From a virus: a stretch of DNA of 35,617 bases. Position 1 is the first letter of the stretch, and every line of letters begins with the position of its first letter. The stretch is taken from positions 1-35,617 of IMG/VR virus record IMGVR_UViG_3300022934_000070; one strand, given 5' to 3'. The notes beneath the pieces were generated by a model. The model was not told the DNA's origin. It did not search any database and saw only the letters and a program-made list of their open reading frames with translations. This document shows positions 15,940-31,912 of this stretch, piece after piece. A program made the position numbers and the translations under genes.

Positions 15940-15950
15940 TTACTCCGTAA
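15940..15950 (-). promoter_or_regulatory. Shine-Dalgarno hairpin of the reductase gene (weakest of six)
   Basis: On the transcript TTAC-GGA-GTAA places the ribosome-binding GGA in a three-base loop between four-base complementary arms. It belongs to the set found before five early genes, which share the ACGGAGT core and vary in the outer arms. The stem is short, so alone it would be unremarkable. Confidence 0.4.
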
Positions 15951-16086
15951 TCGTTCTAATGTTTCTAATGTCGGCACCCTCAATGTCATAAAAGTATTCC
16001 TGAATACCGTCCTCTAATTCCTCGCCCACCTGTCCATCGGCAGGCACTGGATACTCCTCTTCATCAATGTCAATGGTTATGAACAT
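15940..16086 (-). CDS. Small acidic protein (48 aa)
   Basis: It starts one base after the stop of the DUF3310 gene and ends just before the reductase start. The sequence is acidic (MFITIDIDEEEYPVPADGQ, then EELEDGIQEYFYDIEG) with a basic end, NIRTIT. No cysteines or membrane segment. Its position directly before the reductase and its stop overlapping the reductase ribosome site suggest translational coupling. Function unknown. Confidence 0.6.
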   Translation of the reverse strand: MFITIDIDEEEYPVPADGQVGEELEDGIQEYFYDIEGADIRNIRTITE

Positions 16087-16087
16087 C

Positions 16088-16396
16088 TTAACTCTCATCC
16101 GCCATAACCTCTTCTATTAATCTGTCCAAGTACCACTTGGCCTTTTGCAAATCCTCTAGCGGCTTGTCCTTGTAATCAAATCGCCAAAGGTACTTCATAA
16201 CATTACCCTGCAGGTAATACTTAAATCCTTTATCAGTAGCGGCAGAGATAGCTTGTATGCACTCAATGCCTGTCTGATTATAGTGTGGTGGACTGTTGAC
16301 CATATCAACAACATTATCACTTTGTTTATTTGCTTGTGCCATACGTAACTCCTCTTGTATCATCATTGCTTTCATATATTCTTCATGTCTACTCAT
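16088..16396 (-). CDS. DUF3310 (SaV-like) protein (102 aa)
   Basis: The core NSPPHYNQTGIECIQAIS, then GFKYYLQGNVMKYLWRF and LEDLQKAKWYLDRLIEE is the DUF3310 signature, a very common small phage protein sometimes labelled nucleotide kinase-like without firm proof. The N-terminal about 33 residues are a variable charged extension. The ATG overlaps the previous stop (ATGA). Its place among nucleotide and DNA metabolism genes is typical. Confidence 0.85.
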   Translation of the reverse strand: MSRHEEYMKAMMIQEELRMAQANKQSDNVVDMVNSPPHYNQTGIECIQAISAATDKGFKYYLQGNVMKYLWRFDYKDKPLEDLQKAKWYLDRLIEEVMADES

Positions 16397-16764
16397 GCCG
16401 AACCCTTTGTACTTGTATTAAAGTGCAAGTGTACTACGTTACCATCGTAGGTCTTTTCTACACCTGCTTCTTCCTCTAGTTCTACATCAATATCCATCTC
16501 GTTGTCAATAACTTTCGTTACGTACTCATGCACAATATTGCGTAACTCTTCCACCTCTTCCATGACAGGCACTGCAGCACACATCATCTTAGCAAAATGC
16601 ATGACCTGATAGTAGTCATCGTCATCCATAGGATTGTGTGGCATTGCCATGATTGATATATCAACCTCGCCAGACCACTTACCATCATCATCAGCGAATG
16701 GTCTGACACGTATGAGGAAATCTTCATTGTGTATTTCCTTAGATAGTTTATCCATTATGTCCAT
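16393..16764 (-). CDS. Hypothetical acidic protein (123 aa)
   Basis: Strongly acidic, with a beta-like N-terminal half (DFLIRVRPFADDDGKWSGEV, then DISIMAMP) and a helical second half (VPVMEEVEELRNIVHEYV) followed by an acidic stretch and VVHLHFNT. AAGGAG is seven bases before the ATG. No domain is recognised. It lies between endonuclease I and DUF3310 and overlaps the latter. Confidence 0.6.
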   Translation of the reverse strand: MDIMDKLSKEIHNEDFLIRVRPFADDDGKWSGEVDISIMAMPHNPMDDDDYYQVMHFAKMMCAAVPVMEEVEELRNIVHEYVTKVIDNEMDIDVELEEEAGVEKTYDGNVVHLHFNTSTKGSA

Positions 16765-16767
16765 ATT

Positions 16768-17229
16768 CTATCTCCTTTTCACCTTTGTGCCGCCAAACTT
16801 AATAAACTTTGGATGCTTGTTCTTACCCTTCTCCTTCAACCAATCTTCAGGAATAATCCTGTCATAGTATCTAAAGCCATGTTTAATACACCACTCACCA
16901 TATGTAGACTTAGCACCCTTACGAAGTTTGCGTTTACTACTTTCAAACACAAAACGAATATCCAAATTAGGATGCTGCTTTTGTATAGCCAGATGCTTGC
17001 GTCTATCTGCTGCGGTGAACTGTCCCTTTGTCTCAATGATGATGCCGTTGGACAGCACGAAATCGGGGGTGTATGTTCTGTACGCCAAGTCTTCCCACTC
17101 TATCTTGACCTGCTCGTATAGGAAATCAATCTTTAATTCCTTGAGATAGTCAGATACCTTGAGTTCCAGACCGCTACGATACCCATACTTCCGTGCTGCC
17201 CTAAATTGTTTTGCGTTAGCCAACGTCAC
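16768..17229 (-). CDS. T7 endonuclease I-like Holliday junction resolvase (153 aa)
   Basis: T7 endonuclease I (gp3) resolves branched DNA and helps break down host DNA. Its catalytic residues are E20, D55, E65 and K67; here the corresponding residues are E22 (SGLELKVSDYL), D56 (TYTPDFVL), E66 and K68 (IIIETKGQF), the same spacing. The C-terminus is very basic (KFGGTKVKRR), suited to DNA binding. Length is close to T7's 149 residues. It overlaps the neighbouring 68-residue gene by 14 bases. Confidence 0.9.
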   Translation of the reverse strand: MTLANAKQFRAARKYGYRSGLELKVSDYLKELKIDFLYEQVKIEWEDLAYRTYTPDFVLSNGIIIETKGQFTAADRRKHLAIQKQHPNLDIRFVFESSKRKLRKGAKSTYGEWCIKHGFRYYDRIIPEDWLKEKGKNKHPKFIKFGGTKVKRR

Positions 17230-17422
17230 GCCATGAGATAAACGGGTTGCGATAACCTAACGCACGTAGTTCTTCACGTAAGACTTTATCTGCTTCATTA
17301 CGTGCATCAATAGCTGCACGAAGTCCTGCGGTCTTACGTTCACGGTATTCTTTGCGAAGTTCATTAAGATGTCGCTCTGCATCTTTAATCTGTTCTGCAA
17401 GTTCATTGAGTTCATCATCCAT
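17216..17422 (-). CDS. Small coiled-coil protein (68 aa)
   Basis: Residues 1-55 form a charged heptad-like helix (LNELAEQIKDAERHLNELRK), ending in RNPFISWRDVG. AAGGAG is seven bases upstream and the start overlaps the exonuclease stop. It lies between exonuclease and endonuclease I and may be a partner of either. No family is recognised. Confidence 0.6.
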   Translation of the reverse strand: MDDELNELAEQIKDAERHLNELRKEYRERKTAGLRAAIDARNEADKVLREELRALGYRNPFISWRDVG

Positions 17423-18278
17423 TCATATACTCCTTTGCTAGTTCAACATATGCCACTGTGGGCGGGTTCTTTGCCTGTGACTTTACAGCAGGTAACTCAG
17501 TAAGACTATCCCAGCAATCAAAGCGATAGCTGCAAAATTTACATCCGTCATTAAGGACTTTATTACCTGTGGGCTTGCCACGAAAAGTCTCAGGCACTGG
17601 TTCAAAACATCTTTCAAATTTGTTCTCCTTTACTGTCTGAACCGTATCCTTTATTTGGGATACCTCTTTGTCAATGTCAAGACCTGTAGCTGGTACATAC
17701 TTGAACTGCCCATTGGCCTTGTTCACTACCCACCAGCCACCTGCTTTCTTGCCTGATGCTTTGGCGTACCCAGCTAACTGAGCCACATACCCGAAGCCAT
17801 CACCGCTGGCAAGAGTGTCATAGGATTCAAACTTGTTTCTGTATGACCAGTCTGAAGCTGATTTAATATCATCAACTGCACCATCAATGATGAGGTCATA
17901 ACTACCAGAAACGCTATCGTCACCAAGGTCAAGAGAAACTTTATCCGTGTCTTCATAACTTACTCCTGCTTCTTTGAGGATACCTTTGAAGACAGCTTCA
18001 ACGATGTCTCCAATCATCATATTCATTACGAATGTTGTCGGCAGAGGAACAGCTACCTCTGGCTTGTTCTTATCATACCAGAGTTGACAAGTCGGCCTAC
18101 CTACATTTGACATACGTAGGCTGAACTTGTCACGCTTGTTGCCCCCACCGAACTGACGTGCTGCAGCAGACATCACATCAAGGCCAATCTGTTTGATTGT
18201 CTGTTGTGACATACTTGATTTGCCTGTCACGGCGTTCTCAAGATACTGATGCAGTGCCAGTTCAGCAGGATGCTTCAT
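17415..18278 (-). CDS. PD-(D/E)XK exonuclease with Fe-S cysteines (Cas4/RecB-type, 287 aa)
   Basis: The nuclease core is visible: E94 in a helix (GDIVEAVF), D128 in SGSYDLIID, D137-x-K139 in VDDIKSAS, and a downstream helix with Q167 (YVAQLAGYA). Four cysteines, C64, C246, C249 and C255 (CKFCSYRFDC), have the spacing of the iron-sulphur cluster of AddB/Cas4 nucleases. Such phage enzymes replace T7 gp6 exonuclease in recombination and host DNA degradation. It overlaps the ssDNA-binding gene at its start and the coiled-coil gene at its end. Confidence 0.85.
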   Translation of the reverse strand: MKHPAELALHQYLENAVTGKSSMSQQTIKQIGLDVMSAAARQFGGGNKRDKFSLRMSNVGRPTCQLWYDKNKPEVAVPLPTTFVMNMMIGDIVEAVFKGILKEAGVSYEDTDKVSLDLGDDSVSGSYDLIIDGAVDDIKSASDWSYRNKFESYDTLASGDGFGYVAQLAGYAKASGKKAGGWWVVNKANGQFKYVPATGLDIDKEVSQIKDTVQTVKENKFERCFEPVPETFRGKPTGNKVLNDGCKFCSYRFDCWDSLTELPAVKSQAKNPPTVAYVELAKEYMNG

Positions 18279-19159
18279 TACGCTACCTCTTCTTCTTCAA
18301 AGTCCATATCCACAACATCGTCAATGTTCAACTCATCCAAGTCCTCATCGTGTTTTGACGAAGCCTTTTCTGCGTAGGCATTGATGATGTACTCGTTATA
18401 GTTCTGTACCCATGACATGAAGTCAGCAAACTTCTCTTGGTCATCTTGGGTGAGTTCCACAACATTGGTTACATCTAAAGACGTAATAGGTAGGTAGAAG
18501 CTATTACCGTTAGGCAGCTTACGCTCTTCTGTATTCAGCGTTACGTTATGCTGCACAGGTAGACGCTTCATCTTAGCAAGCTGGTTAAACACACCGCCTA
18601 CAGTCTTGAATGCGTCACGGTTCTCTACTTCCCAAATGAATGGGACAGTATCGACACTAGCTTCTTTGCCATCAGCATCCTTTGGATTGACCAACTCAAC
18701 CGTACCAAGCACAACACGTACTCGTTTGATAGAGCGAATCAATTCCTTCGTAGCATCCGGCAGAGACTTGAAGTCCTCAATCCAGCCTGAAGGCTTACCA
18801 CAGTTAAAGCCACCGTCATTATCTTTCAAGTCCATGTTCAGGCTATCAGCCATGACAGTCTTGACGTAACGATTAGGTGCAGTACCTGTAGCCATGACAA
18901 ACTTCTTGTACATGAAGCGTTGCATGAATGGACGCACGATAGCAGACTCTGCGTAGTACGTAGGCCCATCAGGAATCTCCAGCTTATATGTACCACCTTT
19001 AACTTTGATGGTATCTGTACCTAAGATTGGGGAATGCTGGATACGCAGACGTGCAAGGAACATACCTTGCTTCTTCTGTGATGCAGCTTCATTGGCGATA
19101 CCCATAGCCTTTGCCATCTCAGCGTAGTTATTGGTATCAATTGTTGTAATATCATTCAT
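18278..19159 (-). CDS. Putative single-stranded DNA-binding protein (293 aa)
   Basis: A beta-rich N-terminal and central region (QGMFLARLRIQHSPILGTDT, VKGGTYKLEIPDG) is followed by a highly acidic tail (HDEDLDELNIDDVVDMDFEE) ending the protein. Phage ssDNA-binding proteins such as T7 gp2.5 and T4 gp32 use such tails to contact polymerase and helicase. Its position directly after the polymerase in the operon fits. The start MNDITTID was chosen for AAGGAG nine bases upstream; an upstream in-frame ATG has none. The fold is inferred, not proven. Confidence 0.65.
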   Translation of the reverse strand: MNDITTIDTNNYAEMAKAMGIANEAASQKKQGMFLARLRIQHSPILGTDTIKVKGGTYKLEIPDGPTYYAESAIVRPFMQRFMYKKFVMATGTAPNRYVKTVMADSLNMDLKDNDGGFNCGKPSGWIEDFKSLPDATKELIRSIKRVRVVLGTVELVNPKDADGKEASVDTVPFIWEVENRDAFKTVGGVFNQLAKMKRLPVQHNVTLNTEERKLPNGNSFYLPITSLDVTNVVELTQDDQEKFADFMSWVQNYNEYIINAYAEKASSKHDEDLDELNIDDVVDMDFEEEEVA

Positions 19160-19199
19160 GTTTATTAACTCCTTTCCAGTTGTTAGACGCATAGTTATA

Positions 19200-21242
19200 T
19201 CAGGTTACGTCCTTGGTGTCAAGCCAATTCGGGCCTATTTTTGCCTCTAATAACAGAGGCACATTAAACTCAACTCCCCAGCGTTGGGTGATGAGATAAG
19301 GCAGTGCTTTATTAGTTTCGTCTATGATACTGATAACCCGTGATTCTTCATCTGGGTGTACATCAACAACAATACTGTCATGCACTGTATTCACTATACA
19401 CGATTGCATATCCTTTAGCAACATATCAATGTGCAACAATGCGATAGGCACAATGTCTGCTGTAGCAAACGACTGCACAGGATAATTCTTTATCTGTGTA
19501 AAGTGTGAGATGCGACCACTTGCTTTGCGGTACACATCAGGAAAAGCAAACTCACGACCACTTGGTGTAGTAATCTTGCGTGTGCTTATAGCTTCTTTAG
19601 CCAGTCGGGTATGCCAAGACGCGACTCCTTGGTACTTCTGGTTGAAGTGTGTGTAGTATTCTGACTCAGCGGATGTTCGTCCATAGCCTGTTGCCCCGTA
19701 TAACGGCGCGAATGTATGCGCTTTCGCATCCTGTCTACTCGTAGGCTGACCAGCATCACTAATAACTTTAGCGGTGTATGCGTGTACATCAAATCCAGTA
19801 GATACTTCTTCAATAGCAACTCCATCTTGTGATAGATAGGCAGCAGCACGAAACTCCAACTGTGCAAAGTCAGCTTCCATAATCTTGCCACCAGCAAATC
19901 GTGACACAAATACTTTCTTCACAGGAAACGTGCCGCCACGTGGCATGTTCTGCATGTTAGGGTCTGCACCACTGAACCTGCCAGTAGCTGTACGATGTTG
20001 TAGCAAACGCACATGCAGCTTACCATCCTGCTTTGTGTAGGTCTGTATGCCTTCAACAAAGGAAGATAGGTATGTATCCACGGCACTCAACCTACGTACC
20101 TTAGACAGAAAGTCAACAGCGTCAGACATGCCACGCTGCTTTGCAGCAGACTCAAGCACCTCTAGGTTTTGCTTGCTGGTTGAAAAGCCGTTGGCACTTG
20201 CCCACTTTGGTGAAGGGGGTTTGAACTTGAGGCCAGCCAGCGCACTGGTAGGTGTGAGAGTAAAACCAGCAGTATCACAATTACTGCACCGATTAGGTTT
20301 CGCAAACGGTTCGCCATTCTTCTTCACCTTTCTGATGTAGCCTGTACCACCACAGTCTTTACACTGCTCTGCCACAGTCTTGTACATCTTGTCTGTACCG
20401 CCAGCAATCAAGCTGCGGAAGTCTGCGTCATCCATGTATGGGTCAATAGCGTTGCCCCAATACATCTTGTCCTTGACCTTACGGCTGTAGATTACCCAAG
20501 ACAATTGCTCTGGGCTGTTCAGGTTGATAGGTGTGTCACCCATCAGTTTACGCACATGCTCCTGCAGGTCAGTCTCAAGCTGTTGCTTCTCCTGCTCAAA
20601 CTCTGTACGCACTTGCTCCAACACAGACAAGTCAACCTTGAACCCACGCTGATAGATACGTGCTAGGCACACAGCTACCTGATTGGTCAGGTCTACTGTA
20701 CCACGCAAGCCACTATCTGCTGGTGTATTCAAACGATACATCAGCTTGTCAGCAAGTTGCTGCGTAGCCTGAAGGTCAGCAGATAGATATTCACACAACT
20801 CATTGTATGGTATGTCACGTGTGCTGTAGCCTTGCTTGAAGTATTCCTTCAGCGTGTCCTGCTTCTTGGTGTCCAGTTCGTAACGCTCTGCACATGCCTC
20901 AAGAGACAACGGCTCTTTGATACCACGCTGCAATACATACTCAGCCAGCATCGTGTCAAACACAGGGCCATCATACTTAAAGCCTGACTCCCATAGCCAC
21001 ATCAAATCATATGCAGCATTGTGACAGATGAGTACAGTAGCTTCGTCCAGATACCACTGCACACGCTCGTAGTAATCCTGCTGATTGGGTACATCACTGT
21101 GGTCAAATGGGAAGTGCTGCTCCATACCTTGGTCAGTCAACACACCAATCATAGTCAGTGAGTTCTCTGGCTCAAAGGGGTCAAGGTGCATCTTGCCATC
21201 ACGCTTGGTGACTGTATTCTCTACATCAAGTGTTAGCTTCAT
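19200..21242 (-). CDS. polA: Family-A DNA polymerase with DnaJ-type zinc insert (680 aa)
   Basis: The N-terminal 3'-5' exonuclease has D6/E8 (LTLDVENT), HNAAYDLMWLWE (about 74-85) and Y152/D156 (EYLSADLQATQQL). Polymerase motif A is around D458 (MEADFAQLEFR), motif B is R503...K507...F511...Y515-G516 and motif C is H621-D622 (TVHDSIVVDV). Between the domains, C294KDC297GGTG and C319SNC322 form a DnaJ central-domain-like zinc site, the hallmark reported for HMO-2011-type phages. F511 corresponds to E. coli Pol I F762. It replicates the phage genome with the adjacent helicase and primase. The ATG overlaps the helicase stop. Confidence 0.95.
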   Translation of the reverse strand: MKLTLDVENTVTKRDGKMHLDPFEPENSLTMIGVLTDQGMEQHFPFDHSDVPNQQDYYERVQWYLDEATVLICHNAAYDLMWLWESGFKYDGPVFDTMLAEYVLQRGIKEPLSLEACAERYELDTKKQDTLKEYFKQGYSTRDIPYNELCEYLSADLQATQQLADKLMYRLNTPADSGLRGTVDLTNQVAVCLARIYQRGFKVDLSVLEQVRTEFEQEKQQLETDLQEHVRKLMGDTPINLNSPEQLSWVIYSRKVKDKMYWGNAIDPYMDDADFRSLIAGGTDKMYKTVAEQCKDCGGTGYIRKVKKNGEPFAKPNRCSNCDTAGFTLTPTSALAGLKFKPPSPKWASANGFSTSKQNLEVLESAAKQRGMSDAVDFLSKVRRLSAVDTYLSSFVEGIQTYTKQDGKLHVRLLQHRTATGRFSGADPNMQNMPRGGTFPVKKVFVSRFAGGKIMEADFAQLEFRAAAYLSQDGVAIEEVSTGFDVHAYTAKVISDAGQPTSRQDAKAHTFAPLYGATGYGRTSAESEYYTHFNQKYQGVASWHTRLAKEAISTRKITTPSGREFAFPDVYRKASGRISHFTQIKNYPVQSFATADIVPIALLHIDMLLKDMQSCIVNTVHDSIVVDVHPDEESRVISIIDETNKALPYLITQRWGVEFNVPLLLEAKIGPNWLDTKDVT

Positions 21243-22465
21243 CCTGTGTACCTCGCTGTTTGATAATCCAAGTCCACATTAACCATACCATGCCAGCCTG
21301 TCAACTTGTTCTTCACGACATTGACATGCCGCATTGGACTGTCCTCTTCCTCACCTTCTATCTGTGCATTGGTCTTGCCAATCAGTATCATCAGGTCAGC
21401 TTCAGCAGCCTTACCTGTACGTGAGCCTTCCATCATTGACTGATTAAGCTGTGACCTACCCTCTGCCTCTGCTGATAGCTGAGACATATAGAACACGGCA
21501 CAGTCATATGATTTGGCAATCTGCCTTGCGTAGATAGCACATGCCTTGAGTGCTTCGTCTTGCCGTGCAAAGGAACCCTGCACAGAGAACTTGTCACCCA
21601 TGTCAAGCACCAACACGTCAGGCTTGTATGACTTGCATACAGACTCAACCCATGCCATGTCACGACCACCAGCCTCTTTAATCTTGATGTTGTTCATCAC
21701 AGGTTCATAGAGTGCCTTGGCTTTGCTCATGTTGTCACGTACCTCACGTGCAGACATACCAGATGCTGCAGTCAGATAACGTGCGCCGACACGGTGAGTA
21801 GGTTCTTCGTTACATAAGATAATGCACTTGGCACCCTGATGTGCGAAACCGCCCGGCGCAGCAATCAAGCTGGCGTGGAAGGATGTCTTACCTGTGTTGG
21901 GTCTAGCACCCACTTCGATAAGCTGACCACCACTGACACCCTCTACCTTGCGTGTTAAGCTAGGCAGGTTGAATGTCCAACGTGCTTCCAACTCAGCTTT
22001 AGCCATGAGTGTTTCGATAGTGATGTCATCCCACTCAATATTGAGATTGGGAATGAAGTCATCACCATAACGCTCAAGCAGATTGCGTAGCTTCTCAAGT
22101 GTAGCGGCATCACCATTGACCATATCAAATCCGATATTCGCAACGTCTTCGCCAACAACCTGCTGGAATAGTTTGGATAGCACCTCTTGTGCTATGTCAC
22201 TGCCCATTGGTTGCTCACGCTTGATAGAAGCAAACATAGAAGCATAGCCCTGCTTCTGTGCTGTAGTCAGCGTAGGATTGTTTGACATGAACAACGCCTC
22301 AACCTCATCGGGTGTGACGGTGCGTTCATACCTATCCATAGCTGTGTCGATAGCCTCTTTGATTTTACGTGCGTCCTTGCTGAACAAACGTGGTGGGCAT
22401 TTGCTACCACGGTGGTCATCATAGAACGACTTATCCATCAGGCTTCTAATGATTGATAATTCCAT
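21239..22465 (-). CDS. DnaB/T7 gp4-type replicative helicase (408 aa)
   Basis: A RecA-fold ATPase with Walker A GARPNTGKTS (186-195) and Walker B VLVLDMGD (D288), followed by YMSQLSAEAEGR, the region of helicase motif H3. The N-terminal about 150 residues are helical, like a DnaB N-domain, and carry no primase. The primase is a separate gene just upstream, whereas T7 fuses the two. GGAG is seven bases before the ATG, which overlaps the primase gene by 20 bases. It should form a hexamer and unwind the fork ahead of the polymerase. Confidence 0.9.
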   Translation of the reverse strand: MELSIIRSLMDKSFYDDHRGSKCPPRLFSKDARKIKEAIDTAMDRYERTVTPDEVEALFMSNNPTLTTAQKQGYASMFASIKREQPMGSDIAQEVLSKLFQQVVGEDVANIGFDMVNGDAATLEKLRNLLERYGDDFIPNLNIEWDDITIETLMAKAELEARWTFNLPSLTRKVEGVSGGQLIEVGARPNTGKTSFHASLIAAPGGFAHQGAKCIILCNEEPTHRVGARYLTAASGMSAREVRDNMSKAKALYEPVMNNIKIKEAGGRDMAWVESVCKSYKPDVLVLDMGDKFSVQGSFARQDEALKACAIYARQIAKSYDCAVFYMSQLSAEAEGRSQLNQSMMEGSRTGKAAEADLMILIGKTNAQIEGEEEDSPMRHVNVVKNKLTGWHGMVNVDLDYQTARYTG

Positions 22466-25407: not shown

Positions 25408-25409
25408 AT

Positions 25410-25785: not shown

Positions 25786-26264
25786 TCTGGCATACTCCTT
25801 CCCTTGTTATATCGTGCGAAAGCACTTTTGTCTACCTTGTAGAACGCACGGTACGCCATGATAGGCCAGTCCTCGTCCGTCTTGCATTGGTCATGCCCAC
25901 TGAAACACTGTGGGTGTGGCGTAAGCTGACCGTCTGGTATCAGGTCAATGCCACCAGCTATAGCTTGGCTATGCTTACCTGCACCATGCCACTTGCCGTA
26001 TCTCTCGTGATATTCACACAGCATAGAGCAGTAGAGTTCATAGGCATACTTGAAGTTAGCCCGTGTCTTCATGGCCCACAGTGTGCAGGGGTGCTTCTGA
26101 TGCACAGGCTTGTACAAACCACGAGCCTCTGCATACTCAGGGGCATGATGCCACAGTGCAGTGCATAGCATCTGTGCTTCTTCCAGTGGCATCTTGACAA
26201 TGTGTTGGTCACATAGTGACTTAGCTATAGCATCGGGGTGATGCTCAATTAGAAATCTATTCAT
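25773..26264 (-). CDS. Conserved phage protein with CDQHIVKM motif (163 aa)
   Basis: The N-terminus MNRFLIEHHPDAIAKSLCDQ, then HIVKMPLEEAQMLCTALW, is the hallmark of a widespread phage family in which a CDxHVVKM segment follows a short strand. Further conserved-looking parts are KHPCTLWAMKTRANFKYAYE, YGKWHGAGKHS and PHPQCFSGHDQCK, rich in His and Cys. I believe it is sometimes labelled a pyrimidine-dimer glycosylase, but I see no proof here. The ATG (26264) overlaps the previous stop in ATGA. Confidence 0.6.
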   Translation of the reverse strand: MNRFLIEHHPDAIAKSLCDQHIVKMPLEEAQMLCTALWHHAPEYAEARGLYKPVHQKHPCTLWAMKTRANFKYAYELYCSMLCEYHERYGKWHGAGKHSQAIAGGIDLIPDGQLTPHPQCFSGHDQCKTDEDWPIMAYRAFYKVDKSAFARYNKGRSMPEWMC

Positions 26265-26440
26265 CTGCAATCATCCTCGTCAAATTTACAACGTACTGTG
26301 TAGTATGCCATCAGCATTGCGGCAATCTCTGGGAATGTTTCCCAATCAGGTCTGCTACAATTCCACTGATGGTCAATCTCTGCATCAAGCGCAACCAGTA
26401 TGGCGTTGACTTGTTTCTTTGGTAGGTTAAGTGTTATCAT
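26261..26440 (-). CDS. Small hypothetical protein (59 aa)
   Basis: MITLNLPKKQVNAILVALDA is followed by EIDHQWNCSRPDWETFPEIA and a cysteine-containing acidic end. The ATG has GGAG seven bases upstream; the longer upstream frame has no ribosome site and reads as low-complexity Cys/Arg. It overlaps the next gene through ATGA. It resembles small regulatory or dimerising proteins only in size; no family is assigned. Confidence 0.6.
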   Translation of the reverse strand: MITLNLPKKQVNAILVALDAEIDHQWNCSRPDWETFPEIAAMLMAYYTVRCKFDEDDCR

Positions 26441-26591
26441 TGTCAATCTCCTTTTGCATTTCCTGCACACGCTGTTGCAACACGCTGATAGCCGTGTTGA
26501 TGTGGCCTGTGTCGTGTGGTTGCAGTCGTTCCTTGAGTATCTGTATCTCATGTACAAGACATAGCAAGTGCTGTGCTTTTTTAACAATCAT
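26427..26591 (-). CDS. Small coiled-coil protein (54 aa)
   Basis: The frame opens in ATGA overlap with the previous stop and encodes MIVKKAQHLLCLVHEIQILK, then helical VLQQRVQEMQKEIDND. Heptad-like Leu/Val/Ile spacing suggests a short coiled coil. Its end overlaps the start of the 59-residue gene by 14 bases and contains that gene's GGAG. Unknown function. Confidence 0.55.
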   Translation of the reverse strand: MIVKKAQHLLCLVHEIQILKERLQPHDTGHINTAISVLQQRVQEMQKEIDNDNT

Positions 26592-26881
26592 TTGTCATTC
26601 TCCTCTGTCAGTATCCAGCTATGGCGGCAGTTAGTCTTCCAGTTGTTCTGCTTGCCATCCCAATCACATTCATAGACTGTGCAGACAAACCTGCCTGTGT
26701 CTTCATCTGCCCATGCATTAAGGTCAAACATTCTGTCACCTATCTGAACACCAAACCAGTCTTCGTCACAACATCCTGCCATAGCATCAAACACAACTGT
26801 GTCATAGTAGGCTGTCAGATAGCCACGTTCATAGTCGGATAACACAAGGCCAAAACCGCTATCGTAATTATCACTCATCAT
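26588..26881 (-). CDS. Hypothetical acidic protein (97 aa)
   Basis: Acidic and aromatic-rich: SDYERGYLTAYYDTVVFDAM, then CCDEDWFGVQIGDRMFDLNA and VCTVYECDWDGKQNNW. Four cysteines are spread through the chain. Two adjacent ATGs are possible; GGAG is four bases from the first and seven from the second, so the start may be one codon shorter. Overlaps at both ends show it is part of the coupled string. No family is recognised. Confidence 0.6.
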   Translation of the reverse strand: MMSDNYDSGFGLVLSDYERGYLTAYYDTVVFDAMAGCCDEDWFGVQIGDRMFDLNAWADEDTGRFVCTVYECDWDGKQNNWKTNCRHSWILTEENDK

Positions 26882-27084
26882 ATCACTCCTAATACCCAGT
26901 TCTCTGCACAGTTTTCGGCATACACCTCACTGTGTCCTTTGATGTTACGTTCCTCAATGATAGCACCATCCTGCATCATGTACACAGTATAGCTACCATC
27001 AGGCTCAACAAAGACAGTCGCTTTGCGGTATGCACCCATGCCACGACTACAATCTTCATCACTGTAAAACTCATGCAACAGCAT
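26878..27084 (-). CDS. Hypothetical protein (68 aa)
   Basis: MLLHEFYSDEDCSRGMGAYR is followed by KATVFVEPDGSYTVYMMQDG, a two-strand hairpin-like segment, and IIEERNIKGHSEVYAENCAE. The pattern of a beta hairpin with a helical end recalls small phage proteins of one alpha/beta domain. GAGGAG is seven bases before the chosen ATG; another ATG two codons upstream is too close to it. Unknown role. Confidence 0.6.
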   Translation of the reverse strand: MLLHEFYSDEDCSRGMGAYRKATVFVEPDGSYTVYMMQDGAIIEERNIKGHSEVYAENCAENWVLGVI

Positions 27085-27559
27085 CTTCATTCTCCTCTGC
27101 GTGTTCAGCTATATATTCACTGATACCAAACTCATCATCTAGTTCGGGGTAGTCGTTGACTACATTTTCTACATCACCAGTACACCAGTCATCACCATCT
27201 GTGTATTCACCAATAAACATCCAGCCTTCGTCAAGGTAACGAGCAGTCACCTCAAAGCCCATGTCTACCAGCTTATCAAAGACAGGGATAGGTGGCGACC
27301 ATGCGGTATAGAAGTTCAGCACAAGTGTGCTGGCATCCATTCGTGTGCAGTGTGTTTCATACACATCCCACTTAGTACCCCAGTTCTCAAGCCGCCAGTC
27401 ATACCAGCCTGATGTGGGTTCACCTTCATCATCACGAGGCTCTGGTATCAGGTAATGGCACAGTTCTGTGTTCTCTGTATTCATCACATTGTAAATGTTA
27501 TCAATCATTTGGCTGTCATCATGTGACAGGATTACTCTGTTGTCTGTATGATTAGGCAT
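27071..27559 (-). CDS. DUF1281 / YubB ferredoxin-like protein (162 aa)
   Basis: The start MPNHTDNRVILSHDD, then LCHYLIPEP and SGWYDWRLENWGTKWDVYE, is the signature of the YubB ferredoxin-like (DUF1281) family found on plasmids and phages; its function is unknown. The C-terminus is strongly acidic (NDYPELDDEFGISEYIAEHA). GGAG is seven bases before the chosen ATG. Its neighbours are a membrane peptide and other small accessory genes. Confidence 0.8.
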   Translation of the reverse strand: MPNHTDNRVILSHDDSQMIDNIYNVMNTENTELCHYLIPEPRDDEGEPTSGWYDWRLENWGTKWDVYETHCTRMDASTLVLNFYTAWSPPIPVFDKLVDMGFEVTARYLDEGWMFIGEYTDGDDWCTGDVENVVNDYPELDDEFGISEYIAEHAEENEDAVA

Positions 27560-27561
27560 TG

Positions 27562-27696
27562 TCATTCTCCATCCTTAAACAGTTTATATATTATATAACA
27601 TATTCCAACTACAGATACAACCAGATAACCGCCAACGAACACACTGTCCCACGGTATCTGATTGTATATGCATTGTAGTGTTACACACTCAGTCAT
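27562..27696 (-). CDS. Small single-pass membrane protein (44 aa)
   Basis: A 44-codon frame between the zinc-ribbon gene, whose stop it overlaps, and the DUF1281 gene. Residues about 19-41 (VFVGGYLVVSVVGICYIIYK) form one strong membrane helix, followed by LFKDGE, so the short tail is likely cytoplasmic. Its end contains the GGAG of the DUF1281 gene. Possible roles include superinfection exclusion or membrane anchoring; none is shown. Confidence 0.55.
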   Translation of the reverse strand: MTECVTLQCIYNQIPWDSVFVGGYLVVSVVGICYIIYKLFKDGE

Positions 27697-27877
27697 CTTC
27701 GTATTCCTCTATGAGTTGCACTTCTTTACCGCAATCATCACATCGACTTCGCGGATGCTCGTAGTCTGTGTATATATCATTATCATACATCAGCATCCAT
27801 GAAATGCGGTTGGCACGAACCCATGAGAGTTCCCATACATCCGTGCCGCCACACTCATAGCAAACCCACTTGCTCAT
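27689..27877 (-). CDS. Zinc-ribbon protein (62 aa)
   Basis: Two CxxC knuckles, C6YEC9 and C45DDC48, separated by an aromatic-rich segment (VRANRISWMLMYDNDIYTD), define a small zinc ribbon. The C-terminus is acidic (EYEDD). Such proteins bind nucleic acid or adapt transcription or replication factors. The ATG overlaps the previous stop in ATGA and the stop overlaps the membrane peptide gene. Confidence 0.65.
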   Translation of the reverse strand: MSKWVCYECGGTDVWELSWVRANRISWMLMYDNDIYTDYEHPRSRCDDCGKEVQLIEEYEDD

Positions 27878-28257
27878 GCAACTTTCCGTGCTTTGCCACG
27901 ACCCTGACGGGCAAGGTCACGCAGGTTGCTGACTGTCACACTGCCAATCTCAATCGACACATCACGGTCACGGTTTTTACGCTTGACAGCTTTACCCAAT
28001 TCCTTGTGGAAATGGTCAAGGAAGATACCAGCCACAGCCTCAGTCGTATACTGCAAGTACCCACCTGATTCAGCCTTGGCTTCACGAGCATACTGCAAGG
28101 CAAGGTCATAGAACTTGTAACGTCCCAGCTTCACACCGTGATACTCACGATACAATGCTTCTACCTTTGCGAGTTTACGCTCAATCTCTGGTGATGCAAG
28201 CACCTGACCTGTCTTACCTGTTGAACGCTTGTGATATGTAATTGTTTGAATAGCCAT
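27874..28257 (-). CDS. Hypothetical basic protein (127 aa)
   Basis: Basic and mostly helical: KLAKVEALYREYHGVKLGRY, FYDLALQYAREAKAESGGYL, then a Lys/Arg-rich region (GKAVKRKNRDRDVSIEIGSV) and a very basic end (RDLARQGRGKARKVA). The character suggests nucleic-acid binding. AAGGAG lies eight bases before the ATG, and the 16-bp palindrome lies 33 bases upstream of the start. No domain is recognised. Confidence 0.6.
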   Translation of the reverse strand: MAIQTITYHKRSTGKTGQVLASPEIERKLAKVEALYREYHGVKLGRYKFYDLALQYAREAKAESGGYLQYTTEAVAGIFLDHFHKELGKAVKRKNRDRDVSIEIGSVTVSNLRDLARQGRGKARKVA

Positions 28258-28280
28258 GATAAAATCTCCTTTTCGGTTGG

Positions 28281-28673
28281 TTAGTTGGTTAGTCCAACAT
28301 TGGACTTAGGGATTGCATACACTTTGGGTCTACCATTCTCAGTGTACACAGAGATAGCCTGCACCTCAGTCACTGGCTCACCAGTGTCAGCGAATACAAA
28401 CGTATCATTCACATAAGGGTTGTATGTGACTGGCCTACCTGACAAGCAGGTAGCAATGCCATCACGCAAGCCGCCAGTGCCAACGGCAAAGGCATGAACA
28501 TTCTTCTTGCCTTCACGCCGCACCTTGGCTTGTCCAGCAGGACGCACCACGAACTTTGCGTCATACATTGTGAATGCAGTGACGTGCTGTTGAACACGTC
28601 CAGTCTGGCGGTCTTGCAGTGACCACTTCTTTTTGTGTAGGTTCCAGTAAAGTCTATATTTCATGCTAAACAT
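28281..28673 (-). CDS. Hypothetical protein with a palindrome-encoded C-terminus (130 aa)
   Basis: MFSMKYRLYWNLHKKKWSLQ, VRPAGQAKVRREGKKNVHAF and GLRDGIATCLSGRPVTYNPY suggest a compact beta-rich protein of a phage family I cannot name. GGAG is seven bases before the chosen start; the longer frame has no ribosome site. Its last eight residues, KSNVGLTN, are encoded by the 16-bp palindromic repeat, so the repeat doubles as the end of the gene. Confidence 0.6.
   Translation of the reverse strand: MFSMKYRLYWNLHKKKWSLQDRQTGRVQQHVTAFTMYDAKFVVRPAGQAKVRREGKKNVHAFAVGTGGLRDGIATCLSGRPVTYNPYVNDTFVFADTGEPVTEVQAISVYTENGRPKVYAIPKSNVGLTN
28291..28306 (-). repeat. 16-bp palindrome AGTCCAATGTTGGACT, copy 1
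   Basis: Seven-base arms AGTCCAA/TTGGACT flank the central TG on the - strand. It lies inside the end of the 130-residue gene and upstream of the 127-residue gene. All six exact copies have TG, not CA, in the centre when read along leftward transcription. Confidence 0.85.
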
Positions 28674-29049
28674 TTTTGTTCTCCTGCATTGGGTGATATT
28701 CACGGATGCATCCATCTTCATCTAGTTTCTCCGCAACTCGCATTGCAGTTGCGATTTCATCTAGTTCATGTTTAAGTGTGGGTTCGGAAGACCAGTCACC
28801 GTCAAACCATTTTTTCAATTTGACAAGTTTATCATTATCGGTGCTTTCAAAGATTGCTACATAATCAGTCTCCCACGATAGTCCTTGGCCTTGAAAAACT
28901 ACGCCAAAGTATTTGGCTATAGTTTCAAGTTCCAAATGAAAAAGCCTGTGCCATTCCTCGTGTAATTCATCCGTATAAAGCCAGCCAGCACCATAGTACG
29001 TTAATTCACAAGTATACATTATTTTAGTTTTAACATCTATGTTAAGCAT
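28666..29049 (-). CDS. Hypothetical protein (127 aa)
   Basis: Aromatic-rich N-terminus (YTCELTYYGAGWLYTDELHE), a helical middle and LDEIATAMRVAEKLDEDG near the end. Acidic overall, without recognised domain. GCAGGAG precedes the ATG by seven bases, and the very similar leader of the next gene suggests related ribosome sites. It overlaps both neighbours. Confidence 0.55.
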   Translation of the reverse strand: MLNIDVKTKIMYTCELTYYGAGWLYTDELHEEWHRLFHLELETIAKYFGVVFQGQGLSWETDYVAIFESTDNDKLVKLKKWFDGDWSSEPTLKHELDEIATAMRVAEKLDEDGCIREYHPMQENKNV

Positions 29050-29194
29050 AGTTTTTCTCCTGCATAGACTGTTTCATCTTACGAGCCGCTTTGCGGTCAC
29101 GCTTCCAGTTGTCACGCTTTGGGTTGGCAGTCTTACGCACTGGCAACTTCTCAAAGAGAGATAAATCATTCCAATCGTGGTCAAATTCAGTCAT
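29042..29194 (-). CDS. Small basic protein (50 aa)
   Basis: MTEFDHDWNDLSLFEKLPVR is followed by KTANPKRDNWKRDRKAARKM and KQSMQEKNYA. The C-terminal two thirds are strongly basic and could bind nucleic acid. The ATG overlaps the end of the 46-residue gene, with the stop eight bases into it. Part of a longer open frame whose upstream extension has no ribosome site. Confidence 0.55.
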   Translation of the reverse strand: MTEFDHDWNDLSLFEKLPVRKTANPKRDNWKRDRKAARKMKQSMQEKNYA

Positions 29195-29327
29195 TAGTTT
29201 TTCGTGTTTTATTTTCACGGTCTTTATCCTTTTTACGGTTGTATTTAGTTTTGTCTGGCACAACGGTTGCCCTGCGGCGTGACTGTGCCACTGCCTTCGC
29301 CACAGGATTGATAGGTCTAATACGCAT
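29187..29327 (-). CDS. Small very basic protein (46 aa)
   Basis: Encodes MRIRPINPVAKAVAQSRRRA, then TVVPDKTKYNRKKDKDRENK and TRKTND. It is Lys/Arg-rich and lacks acidic or hydrophobic clusters, like small nucleic-acid-binding peptides. GGAG is eight bases before the ATG, and the palindrome lies about 15 bases upstream. First gene after the first composite repeat. Confidence 0.6.
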   Translation of the reverse strand: MRIRPINPVAKAVAQSRRRATVVPDKTKYNRKKDKDRENKTRKTND

Positions 29328-29342
29328 TGTAAATGCTCCGTT

Positions 29343-29358
29343 AGTCCAACATTGGACT
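29343..29358 (-). repeat. 16-bp palindrome, copy 2 (before the 46-aa gene)
   Basis: Exact AGTCCAATGTTGGACT in the leftward sense, in the gap before the 46-residue gene and followed by TAACGGAG. Together with the 26-bp inverted repeat upstream it forms one of two similar composite elements. Confidence 0.85.
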
Positions 29359-29381
29359 TATCTAGTATATCTAAGTGTAAA

Positions 29382-29407
29382 AACACTTTCACAAAGTTTC
29401 AAGTGTT
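29382..29407. repeat. 26-bp inverted-repeat element, copy 1
   Basis: Arms AACACTT and AAGTGTT flank a 12-base centre; the whole 26 bases recur exactly at 30734. A further TAAGTGT half-site lies at 29372. On the - strand a promoter-like GTGAAA-N17-TATACT spans from inside the element towards the palindrome, so it may combine promoter and operator for the genes to the left. Confidence 0.65.
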
Positions 29408-29434
29408 TTATACACAAAGATATACATAAGAGGT

Positions 29435-30121
29435 TTAGCCATTTGCCACGGCATCAGCTTTCTTCTTGCTAGTACCATGTGCCGGAAAGCCAACGATAAA
29501 GTCACGTTGTCTTTGACAAAGCTGGCAAGTGGCACAAGATACATCATCACGCACAGCCGCCGGACACACAACTACCTTGCGACCTTGTGGCGTGGTAGTG
29601 TTTTTTGTCTGGTCAATAGGCAATACTGTAGCCACAGGGCCAGCATCCAAGTCAGCAAGCTGGTCAGCATGAGCCAAGTTATTGGCAGACAGATTGACAG
29701 TGAAGCCAGAACGATTCATGTGTGTCACAATCATACGGTTACGCTTGCTGTCAAGCACAGGGTAGTGTGTATATGTGAAGCCACGCTTACCGTCATTGGC
29801 TGATGTCAATTCCATACAAGCCTTGGCATCAAGCTGGTCATTGCGTCCGGGCAAGTCACCAGCCTGATTGTGCCGCCACAATGTGTCAGCTTTCAAGTTG
29901 GCAATCTTGTCAAGAAACACAGGCCAAGTGTCACCACGAGCCTTGTCGGATACTTTCATCCAGTGCATCTTGAGAGGGCCGGATTCTGCGTAGCAACCGC
30001 CCTCGTTTGCGTTGTTGAACGGGCAAGCTGGTGGGCAAGTCTGTGCCTCTGTAGTAGACACAGGAATATCACCAGTCTTTTCATTCTTGGATTTCGGGGT
30101 CAAGTGTACTTGATAAGTCAT
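29435..30121 (-). CDS. Cysteine-rich phage protein, DUF7227-like (228 aa)
   Basis: After MTYQVHLTPKSKNEKTGDIP it has VSTTEAQTCPPACPF and GGCYAESGPLKMHW, then near the C-terminus VVCPAAVRDDVSCATCQLCQ. These paired Cys clusters recur in a phage family sometimes called DUF7227 and may bind a metal or iron-sulphur cluster. It is not a canonical radical-SAM CxxxCxxC. The start has CGGAG seven bases upstream inside a perfect hairpin; upstream residues in the longer frame have no ribosome site. Confidence 0.6.
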   Translation of the reverse strand: MTYQVHLTPKSKNEKTGDIPVSTTEAQTCPPACPFNNANEGGCYAESGPLKMHWMKVSDKARGDTWPVFLDKIANLKADTLWRHNQAGDLPGRNDQLDAKACMELTSANDGKRGFTYTHYPVLDSKRNRMIVTHMNRSGFTVNLSANNLAHADQLADLDAGPVATVLPIDQTKNTTTPQGRKVVVCPAAVRDDVSCATCQLCQRQRDFIVGFPAHGTSKKKADAVANG

Positions 30122-30123
30122 AG

Positions 30124-30138
30124 TGTTACTCCGTAACA
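30124..30138 (-). promoter_or_regulatory. Shine-Dalgarno hairpin before the Cys-rich gene
   Basis: On the transcript TGTTAC-GGA-GTAACA gives six-base perfect arms around a GGA loop five bases before the ATG. The arms are unrelated in sequence to those of the other hairpins apart from the AC/GT next to the loop, yet remain complementary. Confidence 0.7.
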
Positions 30139-30332
30139 ATGGTTGCAGTAAAGTCATCCGATAGCCAACGTATATCACCAGTCTCAAGAGACTGCAAGCG
30201 GAATGTGCCAGTAGGCCATTCAGGTATACGCTTGGGTAGGTCAAGCACCTGCCAAAACTCGCCGTGTTCATTCACACGGTTTTTGCCATGGCGTGTCTTG
30301 CCTTGTAGTTTAACAATCTTTCCGGTTTGCAT
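30126..30332 (-). CDS. Small SH3-like hypothetical protein (68 aa)
   Basis: MQTGKIVKLQGKTRHGKNRV, FWQVLDLPKRIPEWPTGTFR and LQSLETGDIRWLSDDFTATI form a run of short beta strands like a small SH3-type barrel. Basic N-terminus. GGAG is six bases before the ATG and lies in a hairpin, with the palindrome just upstream. Function unknown. Confidence 0.55.
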   Translation of the reverse strand: MQTGKIVKLQGKTRHGKNRVNEHGEFWQVLDLPKRIPEWPTGTFRLQSLETGDIRWLSDDFTATIVTE

Positions 30333-30334
30333 AT

Positions 30335-30347
30335 CAAACTCCGTTTG
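30335..30347 (-). promoter_or_regulatory. Shine-Dalgarno hairpin before the 68-aa gene
   Basis: CAAAC-GGA-GTTTG on the transcript, five-base perfect arms around the GGA that should pair with 16S rRNA. The 16-bp palindrome lies three bases upstream. Confidence 0.7.
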
Positions 30348-30350
30348 TTA

Positions 30351-30366
30351 AGTCCAACATTGGACT
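30351..30366 (-). repeat. 16-bp palindrome, copy 3
   Basis: Exact copy between the 103-residue gene (its stop overlaps the palindrome end) and the 68-residue gene, followed by TTAACAAACGGAG. Confidence 0.85.
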
Positions 30367-30676
30367 AAATGTTATCAGTCAAACTGCATCTACGCAAGTC
30401 CTCTTCCTCATCAATGTTTGGCACATCAATTTCACAGCATTGCCACGCCGCCCACACTTCGCCTGTTTCGCGGTTGATGACAGCGCAGTCACACCAATCG
30501 GAATCCCATGTGTCCACAATCGTGGCACGAGACTCCCACTTCCAGCCAACAGCATCTTCCCATGCGGCAGTAGCCTTTGGCTCAATGATGGCACGAGCAT
30601 CCTCTTGCGTCCAAGCAATTTCAGGTATGGCTTGCCAGCCACATGAAGTCCATTCAGCAATAACAATCTGTTTCAT
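30365..30676 (-). CDS. Hypothetical acidic protein (103 aa)
   Basis: MKQIVIAEWTSCGWQAIPEI is followed by Trp-rich segments (AAWEDAVGWKWESRATIVDT) and WCDCAVINRETGEVWAAWQC, ending acidic. The Trp and Cys content is unusual and suggests a compact domain. The chosen ATG has GGAG six bases upstream in a hairpin. No family is recognised. Confidence 0.55.
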   Translation of the reverse strand: MKQIVIAEWTSCGWQAIPEIAWTQEDARAIIEPKATAAWEDAVGWKWESRATIVDTWDSDWCDCAVINRETGEVWAAWQCCEIDVPNIDEEEDLRRCSLTDNI

Positions 30677-30678
30677 TT

Positions 30679-30691
30679 TCAACTCCGTTGA
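30679..30691 (-). promoter_or_regulatory. Shine-Dalgarno hairpin before the 103-aa gene
   Basis: TCAAC-GGA-GTTGA on the transcript, five-base perfect arms, with the GGA as loop and the ATG three bases after the arm. The palindrome copy lies five bases upstream. Confidence 0.7.
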
Positions 30692-30696
30692 TGTTA

Positions 30697-30712
30697 AGTC
30701 CAACATTGGACT
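30697..30712 (-). repeat. 16-bp palindrome, copy 4
   Basis: Exact copy upstream of the 103-residue gene, with the second 26-bp element 21 bases further upstream, giving the second composite element. Confidence 0.85.
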
Positions 30713-30733
30713 AGGTAAGTGTATCTAAGTAAT

Positions 30734-30759
30734 AACACTTTCACAAAGTTTCAAGTGTT
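30734..30759. repeat. 26-bp inverted-repeat element, copy 2
   Basis: Identical over 26 bases to the element at 29382, with a TAAGTGT half-site at 30716. The flanks are similar but not identical (spacing to the palindrome is two bases shorter), so this is a diverged duplication. On the - strand the promoter-like pattern is weaker than at copy 1. Confidence 0.65.
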
Positions 30760-30774
30760 ATTACGTAAGTTACA

Positions 30775-31017
30775 CTAAAGTAAACCCTTGGCAAGCATCC
30801 TAGCTTTCAAGGCCAGCAATCTTTGCTGTTTGGCCTCGCTCTCAATCTGTGCTTTATAAGCACGATTGGCGGCATCAGCTTGACCAGTCACAAAGCACCG
30901 AAACTCAGGCCGTGTCTCAGGCTCATAGCTACGGCTGAAAGCCTTGCTATCCATAGCCGCCCAGCTTGAACGCACCAGCTTGTGTTTACCCATTGGTGTG
31001 ATGAATTTACGAGCCAT
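30775..31017 (-). CDS. Hypothetical basic protein (80 aa)
   Basis: Basic, with MARKFITPMGKHKLVRSSWA, FRCFVTGQADAANRAYKAQI and a long helical Ala/Lys-rich end (ESEAKQQRLLALKARMLAKG). GAGG is seven bases before the ATG. It overlaps the end of the preceding membrane protein gene. No family is recognised. Confidence 0.6.
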   Translation of the reverse strand: MARKFITPMGKHKLVRSSWAAMDSKAFSRSYEPETRPEFRCFVTGQADAANRAYKAQIESEAKQQRLLALKARMLAKGLL

Positions 31018-31243
31018 TGTACTGCCTCAAAATGTTTTCGTGAATACGGTTTTGGCGAAGTCTCAAGTGGCTATCGTAGAAAGCCAAGCCAGCCGCCCAA
31101 GCCACAAATGCTACGCACCAGCACATTCCGCCAGTCATTGGGTCAATCAGCAAAGCTGTCACAGGACCAGCGCAGAAGAATGCGAATGCTACACACCACA
31201 TAAACAGGCAACAAAAACCATGCATAATTTCGTTGATAATCAT
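31007..31243 (-). CDS. Small membrane protein, two helices (78 aa)
   Basis: Two hydrophobic segments, CCLFMWCVAFAFFCAGPVTA and CWCVAFVAWAAGLAFY, joined by LLIDPMTGGM, then a basic tail (RLRQNRIHENILRQ). It is Cys-rich in the membrane regions. Such early membrane proteins may block superinfection or alter the host envelope; nothing specific is visible. The first ATG is used (an upstream TTG is unlikely) and its GGAG sits in a hairpin. Confidence 0.6.
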   Translation of the reverse strand: MIINEIMHGFCCLFMWCVAFAFFCAGPVTALLIDPMTGGMCWCVAFVAWAAGLAFYDSHLRLRQNRIHENILRQYNGS

Positions 31244-31246
31244 TTT

Positions 31247-31261
31247 CAATACTCCGTATTG
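31247..31261 (-). promoter_or_regulatory. Shine-Dalgarno hairpin before the two-helix membrane gene
   Basis: CAATAC-GGA-GTATTG on the transcript, six-base perfect arms around the GGA loop. Three bases upstream lies a palindrome copy. Confidence 0.75.
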
Positions 31262-31264
31262 GTT

Positions 31265-31280
31265 AGTCCAACATTGGACT
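31265..31280 (-). repeat. 16-bp palindrome, copy 5
   Basis: Exact copy in the gap between the 197-residue gene and the two-helix membrane gene, followed by AACCAATACGGAG. Confidence 0.85.
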
Positions 31281-31301
31281 TGGGGAAGGGTAGACAGTAG
31301 C

Positions 31302-31895
31302 TTACGCTACTGCCTTTTTGTTTGTGTCTTCATCCTGAAGGATGGCTTTGATTGCGGCGAATGCATCCTCAAATTCTTTGAGGCTTACACCATTTGTGTC
31401 GAGCAAGTCAAAGACTTGTTCTGCAATCGTATCGGCATCCAACTTTGTTGGCTTGTCTAGTCCAACATTGGACTTGTCGTCAGCCTTTGGCTCAATAGGT
31501 GTGTCAGCCTCTGGCTCAGTTGACTGTTCAGCTTTGCTGGCTTTTTTCATTGCAGCTTGTAAAGCTGTGAGGCTCTTGAAGCCTTTCTTTGAGGCTTTCA
31601 TAAACTCACGGCACTCAGTCTCATTCTCGACAAACCACAGAGCCTCTGCTCTGCGCCGCTTGTCAATGTTGTGAATGTTGCAATCCTTCAGCCTAGCTGA
31701 AGAAATACGACCAGCATCAGTTTCGGCTTTCAGCTTCTGCATCAGCTTTCCAAGCCGTGTGTCGAAGCCATCAGCCTTGGTAGCATTTTCAAAGTTGCCT
31801 TTGGCAATGCCACGCCAAATTGATGCAAGGGCTTTGCCCTCTGATTCCAATGTGTTGATTTCAGCCTTAACTACGTTAGCAATTTTCTTCGTCAT
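31302..31895 (-). CDS. First gene of the leftward operon, two-domain helical protein (197 aa)
   Basis: The N-terminal domain (about 1-120) is basic and helical (MTKKIANVVKAEINTLESEG, DAGRISSARLKDCNIHNIDK). A Glu/Pro linker (STEPEADTPIEPKADDK) is followed by SNVGLD, encoded by the palindrome, and then an acidic helical C-terminal domain (DADTIAEQVFDLLDTNGVSL). Being first after the intergenic region it is a candidate early regulator, but no HTH is evident. GGAG is seven bases upstream in a hairpin. Confidence 0.6.
   Translation of the reverse strand: MTKKIANVVKAEINTLESEGKALASIWRGIAKGNFENATKADGFDTRLGKLMQKLKAETDAGRISSARLKDCNIHNIDKRRRAEALWFVENETECREFMKASKKGFKSLTALQAAMKKASKAEQSTEPEADTPIEPKADDKSNVGLDKPTKLDADTIAEQVFDLLDTNGVSLKEFEDAFAAIKAILQDEDTNKKAVA
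31459..31474 (-). repeat. 16-bp palindrome, copy 6, inside a coding sequence
   Basis: Exact copy in the linker of the 197-residue protein, read in the same frame (K-SNVGL) as the copy ending the 130-residue gene. The linker looks disordered and so would tolerate an insertion. Confidence 0.85.
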
Positions 31896-31897
31896 AT

Positions 31898-31912
31898 CTA
31901 AACTCCGTTTAG
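31898..31912 (-). promoter_or_regulatory. Shine-Dalgarno hairpin before the first leftward gene
   Basis: CTAAAC-GGA-GTTTAG on the transcript, six-base perfect arms around the GGA loop, two bases before the ATG. A second small stem, GAGGC-CGTT-GCCTC, lies just upstream. Confidence 0.75.

Follow-up and report, generated by a model that had tools for sequence, protein, structure and literature searches.

Hairpins formed by the Shine-Dalgarno sequence at immediate-early genes of HMO-2011-type phages: a putative translational switch

Several immediate-early genes of HMO-2011-type phages probably start with a selected mRNA hairpin, termed here HP2, which would keep the Shine-Dalgarno (SD) sequence poised and is likely to serve as a translational operator or switch. 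HP2 is described from a 35,617-base virus record (IMGVR_UViG_3300022934_000070), the whole of which is referred to as the window, and from related phages. GGA forms the triloop of this hairpin, a constant C pairs with the last G of GGAG, and the stem is nearly pure A-U, with 4-6 base pairs (bp) in total and its end mostly 1-4 nucleotides (nt) upstream of AUG. The window is assigned to the HMO-2011 type because its ribonucleotide reductase (RNR) is 82.5% identical to the reductase of Puniceispirillum phage HMO-2011 and its gene order is similar; its leftward early genes begin at about 31.9 kb. Phages of this type are presented as dominant and broadly distributed in the ocean in the abstract of PMC9038755; the words 'promoter', 'hairpin' and 'ribosome' do not occur in its main text.

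HP2 sites in the window

Five hairpins on the minus strand lie in the early cluster (30124-31912) and behave alike. CTAAAC-GGA-GTTTAG (31898..31912, 6 bp, -3.1 kcal/mol as RNA) is the SD of the first early gene, which encodes a protein of 197 amino acids (aa; 31302-31895), and CAATAC-GGA-GTATTG (31247..31261, 6 bp, -3.7 kcal/mol) is that of the gene at 31007-31243. TCAAC-GGA-GTTGA (30679..30691, 5 bp, -2.5 kcal/mol) and CAAAC-GGA-GTTTG (30335..30347, 5 bp, -1.8 kcal/mol) serve the genes at 30365-30676 and 30126-30332, respectively, and TGTTAC-GGA-GTAACA (30124..30138, 6 bp, -3.5 kcal/mol), which overlaps the end of the upstream gene, is the SD of the DUF7227 gene (29435-30121). A further string, TTAC-GGA-GTAA (15940..15950, minus strand), forms a weak 4-bp stem at the RNR gene (14007-15935). 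All six strings had been reported in the initial annotation and were found on the minus strand where it placed them, with the start codon 7-9 nt past GGA at every site. Its count of 20 further pairs beyond AC/GT is correct, the stems running outward from GGA for 6, 6, 5, 5, 6 and 4 bp, and the genes at 29327 and 31017 do lack the hairpin in the window, as it had stated.

The heptamer ACGGAGT occurs seven times in the window compared with 2.17 expected, a number reached by 2 of 100 shuffles; the seventh copy (12895) lies within a mazG-like open reading frame and has no pairing beyond the core. The heptamer had been taken for a constant core, a description too wide by one pair: only CGGAG is kept in relatives, flanked by an A-U, a U-A or, in rare cases, a C-G pair. 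A search of the window with 4227 Rfam models gave no match at gathering score.

The six sites had also been treated as one set, to which the reductase site does not belong. Its best RNA fold is unpaired (0 kcal/mol). Among 58 distinct RNR leaders CGGAG is present in 25, nine of which have exactly 4 bp and 16 fewer. The bases of the window site are explained by its overlap with the stop codon of the reading frame before it. Because of this overlap and the loss of pairing in 16 of the 25 relatives with CGGAG, RNR is rejected as a sixth member of the HP2 set. For the DUF7227 gene, CGGAG is found in 11 of 69 distinct leaders, and seven of these 11 keep at least 4 bp with differing arms.

Pairing, link to start codons and spread of HP2

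At leader positions in the window and its relatives, GGA ranks first in frequency among the 64 triloops, with stems of at least 5 bp in 34 of 4591 cases compared with 418 of 265,100 for all loops. The CGGAG leaders of 16 phage records have stems of at least 4 bp in 31 of 70 cases (3.6 expected) and of at least 5 bp in 24 of 70 (1.6 expected). Among the GGA leaders of these records the enrichment of hairpins is confined to C-GGA-G, A-GGA-T giving 2 of 96 against 2.8 expected. Stem length in 333 distinct CGGAG leaders is bimodal, with 159, 58, 9, 29, 34, 40 and 4 leaders at 1 to 7 bp, compared with 214, 79, 22, 12, 4, 1.6 and 0.4 when the arms are re-dealt; stems of at least 4 bp number 107 against 18 expected, and four of the 107 exceed 6 bp. 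The shuffled-leader control proposed in the initial annotation is thus favourable to it, paired CGGAG leaders exceeding the shuffles in both the 70 and the 333 leaders. A pairing-blind sample, obtained by scanning viral contigs for an upstream dyad and then CGGAG, comprises 83 stretches and 76 distinct modules, with stems of at least 4 bp in 66 modules and of at least 5 bp in 46. When the right arms were re-dealt in 1000 rounds, stems of at least 5 bp averaged 11.8, with a maximum of 20.

The arms also covary. Alignment A1 consists of 71 leader rows (four from the window) picked by CGGAG but regardless of pairing; L033, L242 and L243 were dropped from an original 74 rows as likely chance matches, and in the full set positions 2, 3 and 4 are paired in 64, 64 and 63 rows. 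In A1, 78.6% of cells are paired (59.8% in shuffles) and both-sided changes are present in 79 cells (33 in shuffles). The covariation score is 0.421 compared with 0.140 in shuffles and is reached by none of 500 shuffles; the pair-count and pair-type measures are not above shuffles, being reached by 489 and 342 of the 500, respectively. Registers slid by 1-3 columns give covariation of only 0.05-0.14. Positions 2-4 hold A-U and U-A pairs plus one C-G, and the C-G pair beside the loop is invariant in these rows, which were chosen by CGGAG. The covariation in A1 bears out the compensatory variation asserted earlier, and the pairing of HP2 looks selected and tied to translation.

In the 16 records, CGGAG with an ATG 5-11 nt past GGA has stems of at least 5 bp in 32 of 129 cases (1.8 in left-arm shuffles), whereas CGGAG without such an ATG has them in 3 of 213 (1.1 in shuffles), which argues against a plain DNA site and for a structure in mRNA. 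Among C-NNN-G loops of other sequence that precede ATG, 85 of 9362 reach 5 bp or more, and the highest rate among the commoner of them (4 of 45) is that of TCC, the complement of GGA. The 32 hairpins of this length found at CGGAG before ATG are all near the early cluster, each having a copy of a second element, the dyad HP1 (see below), within 2 kb.

HP2 with at least 5 bp is present one to five times in 13 of the 16 records, and the other three have the 4-bp form only. Isolates are among the carriers (HMO-2011 and CRP-1, and CRP-345 with the 4-bp form, checked over 50,000 of its 54,718 bases), so HP2 is open to experiment. CRP-2, CRP-13 and CRP-207, checked over their whole length, showed none (at least 4 bp in 0 of their 6 CGGAG leaders), nor did CRP-603 in its first 16 kb. 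In a scan of viral sequences, the paired version TTAATCGGAGATTAA stands before ATG in at least 120 stretches, and a pairing-broken control of the same composition in 19. Leaders with other arms at 130 of the scan loci, controls among them, are paired over at least 4 bp in 48 of 111 cases against about 9 expected, and an HP1-like dyad is present at 12 of 111 new paired-version loci. The one scan locus tested (L395) encodes a terminase that, along 87% of its length, shares 73-76% identity with the terminases of HMO-2011, CRP-1 and CRP-345; two other loci, in contigs of 191 and 206 kb, may represent other phages or chance. Host use was searched with one arm version only: among 289 genomes of a single bacterial class, the pattern TAAACGGAGTTTAN{1,4}ATG and its reversed control each occur in one.

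A translational switch and rival explanations

HP2 stems are poor in G and C. The G+C fraction at stem positions 2-6 is 0.07 in hairpin leaders compared with 0.33 in unpaired CGGAG leaders, and the median energy of the stems falls from -0.7 kcal/mol at 37 °C to -2.7 at 20 °C and -4.0 at 10 °C. The set used is weighted towards the scanned arm; before the arm scan, 230 of the 234 pairs at positions 2-4 of stems of at least 5 bp were A-U or U-A. A stem of this weakness would hold the ribosome site poised and openable by the 30S subunit, and a trans-acting factor (a repressor protein or a RegB-like nuclease) recognising the closed C-GGA-G would turn the genes down together. The exact loop and closing pair suggest that a specific factor may exist. 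HP2, a conserved structure at the SD of a gene set, is best read as a translational operator, as had been proposed; the inclusion of the reductase in that proposal did not stand, and the binding protein is putative.

A fuller version of this proposal is advanced only tentatively. HP2 could represent a new class of phage translational switch, in which the SD itself folds into a C-GGA-G triloop at one to five early genes of each genome in an abundant marine group, and an undescribed RNA-binding protein or nuclease, from phage or host, recognises this triloop and stops immediate-early translation. No phage hairpin with the SD in its loop like HP2 was found described in the literature searched, which included few subscription journals. 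As a switch, HP2 would provide a testable handle on early-gene timing in these phages and a short tag for co-regulated genes in metagenomes.

Several observations weigh against HP2 as a translational switch. C-GGA-G accounts for 70 of about 840 GGA leaders counted, most leaders using another SD, and a short linker after HP1 leads to an unpaired CGGAG, e.g. at 29327 in the window. Four of the 11 DUF7227 leaders with CGGAG are unpaired (L021, L022, L073 and L075). A ribosome site kept without its pairing, which the initial annotation had named as evidence against its own proposal, is thus seen in these four leaders as well as at the reductase, and is not seen in the seven other DUF7227 leaders. 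G-U pairs occupy 5 of 426 cells in A1, which is rare for an RNA stem, though G and C are scarce in the stems overall. The shuffles are uncorrected for relatedness; slid registers correct for it in part, and the counts are not fully corrected. Finally, searches for a partner identified no factor (CsrA in 0 of 19 phage records, RegB in 0 of 20).

The hairpin might also act without a partner, a weak stem at the SD setting low or temperature-dependent early translation in cold seawater. The A-U stems, which are marginal at 37 °C and stable at 10-20 °C and seldom exceed 6 bp, would suit this role, but intrinsic tuning does not need exactly GGA closed by C-G, and neither other loops nor A-GGA-T hairpins are enriched to the same degree; we consider it rather unlikely.

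Cleavage by a RegB-like enzyme would be a special case of the trans-acting factor, in which a phage ribonuclease cuts GG*AG in early SDs as a shut-off. The sites of T4 RegB likewise are GGAG in the SDs of early phage mRNAs and are the closest parallel to HP2 in geometry: in the sections of PMC3014915 on this enzyme, the favourable geometry for RegB without S1 is an unpaired GGA with a partly constrained fourth G, an account matched by the geometry of HP2 and its distribution over early genes. RegB-type GGAG, as CGGAG, is present in 71 of 71 A1 rows, which were selected for it. However, the same sections give the consensus GGAGRAYARAA, with an A-rich 3' side, from which HP2 departs (U follows GGAG in 55 of 71 rows), and state that structure protects most sites from RegB. 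The RegB family PF10715 matched 0 of 20 records at E<=10, the window included, in a search in which 6 of 14 control genomes matched below the cut-off and T4 was not among the controls. Such a nuclease appears improbable. Two further T4 systems are more distant: RegA likewise controls translation of multiple genes, but its sites are without structure in the account of PMC3014915, whereas HP2 is structured; the gp43 operator is likewise a hairpin but, in the same account, is situated some 40 bases before the start codon and has a UAAC loop.

HP2 could alternatively be a DNA hairpin on single-stranded or supercoiled DNA, like the promoters of the N4 virion RNA polymerase, which are nearest to it in core sequence. 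As far as PMC4496689 is concerned with these promoters, their core is -9C -10G -11G -12A and the stem may vary if paired, so that a C-GGA-G triloop and a variable paired stem are common to both; single-strand DNA folds of HP2 are similarly stable, and its G-U pairs are rare. However, GGA is on the template strand in N4 and on the coding strand, at the SD, at all five window sites, from which transcription by analogy would run away from the genes, and the hairpins stand before start codons and rarely elsewhere. No RNA polymerase family match was obtained among the proteins scanned, and PF00940 was found in 0 of 16 records, in a search in which no control matched either. The 1168-, 656- and 553-aa rightward proteins had no Pfam match at E<=0.01 (the 1168-aa protein also no PDB match), and for a 1246-aa protein of CRP-345 no RNA polymerase was named among the best 60 of 84 PDB sequence matches, most of which were to linker-like stretches. 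A promoter of this kind is very unlikely. Least credible of all is a mutational bias, template switching at short inverted repeats that would perfect palindromes without RNA selection: it is consistent with the mostly perfect arms and the few single-sided changes (5 of 426 cells), but fails to explain the restriction to CGGAG before a start codon (3 of 213 elsewhere) and the avoidance of G-C.

The CsrA consensus is an ANGGAN hexaloop on a stem, with A two bases before GGA. Targets of CsrA, RsmA and RsmE, which the hairpins had been said to resemble, likewise have GGA in a hairpin loop over the SD with possible translational repression, but HP2 has a symmetric GGA triloop closed by C-G, and its register nearest to the hexaloop is not conserved. 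With the arms placed around ACGGAG (slide -1), 36.9% of cells are paired and covariation is 0.139, compared with 78.6% and 0.421 for the triloop, and the CsrA hexaloop is rejected. Two bases before GGA, where the consensus has A, 13 of the 71 A1 rows carry T. CsrA was found in 0 of 19 related phage records, a set outside which the window lies, and was also absent from one metagenome-assembled genome (MAG); the class of that MAG, which may not be the class of the phage host, was represented by 289 genomes, 56 of them with CsrA, and a host CsrA could conceivably bind HP2. With the hexaloop register failing and CsrA missing from the 19 records, membership of HP2 among the CsrA/Rsm targets is not supported.

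The HP1 dyad and candidate partner genes

HP1 is a 14-bp palindrome (GTCCAANNTTGGAC) with seven copies in the window (28292-32273), where none is expected. The copies, listed on the minus strand, lie upstream of HP2 in three cases (31266..31279, with the sequence GTCCAATGTTGGAC; 30698..30711; and 30352..30365), before the gene at 29187-29327, where CGGAG is unpaired (29344..29357), inside the coding sequence of the 197-aa gene (31460..31473), at the end of an L5-gp82-like gene (28292..28305) and, as the variant GTCCAACCTTGGAC, upstream of the first early gene (32260..32273). The sequence of HP1 differs between phages, versions in relatives being GTCCGATGTCGGAC, GTCCAACGTTGGAC or GTCCGACAGCGGAC (orientation not fixed), and 15 of 16 related records have 4-7 copies, the remaining one having two. 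Of 75 distinct homologues of the 197-aa gene, 67 contain GTCC-N6-GGAC within the coding region, a share inflated by the many loci fetched through HP1; HMO-2011 is one of the eight that lack it. The in-gene copy encodes SNVG (as in the window) or SDVG, within a variable linker predicted to be disordered, which suggests that it is a nucleic-acid site. HP1 is possibly an operator or a centromere-like site, and perhaps a DNA operator for the 197-aa protein.

The 197-aa gene is present in 16 of 16 HP2-bearing records and in 0 of 3 records without HP2, a comparison in which three of the 16 have only the 4-bp form and the HP2-lacking genomes number only three. The elements HP1 and HP2 can occur apart: in G004, which carries HP1 and the 197-aa gene, HP2 was not detected, and G006 and the 16.6-kb fragment G308 carry HP2 but lack HP1 and the gene. 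With these patterns the gene is rejected as the partner of HP2 and instead tracks HP1, for which its product is a candidate partner. HP2 is present in the gene's own leader in 9 of 75 homologues. The modelled protein is helical with a disordered linker (mean pLDDT 74.7); its best PDB fold match had E 0.53, short of the threshold of E<=0.001, sequence searches gave nothing below E 0.3, and no family matched above cut-off. The DUF932 gene and an 80-aa gene (12942-13184, minus strand) are each present in 15 of 16 HP2-bearing records and 0 of 3 others. The 80-aa protein contains a conserved NTMQxREWxRGWNxAY-like motif and has no Pfam or PHROG match; no support was found for a protein like ribosome modulation factor.

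Three minor observations concern the surroundings of these elements. Same-named contigs with an HMO-2011-like DNA polymerase (63% identity; L277-L280) are binned in a Flavobacteriales MAG and a Neomarinimicrobiota MAG, and their occurrence in two unrelated marine MAGs suggests binning contamination. Between the early and the rightward genes of the window (32526-32554, plus strand) lies a perfect sigma-70 consensus promoter, TTGACA-17-TATAAT with TG, which points rightward. The HP1-less relative L055 has another repeated inverted repeat, like TAGTAGAGTATCTTACGATACTA, between its early genes and upstream of its HP2 leaders (at about 3250-3285, 3525-3560, 4170-4195 and 5840-5870).

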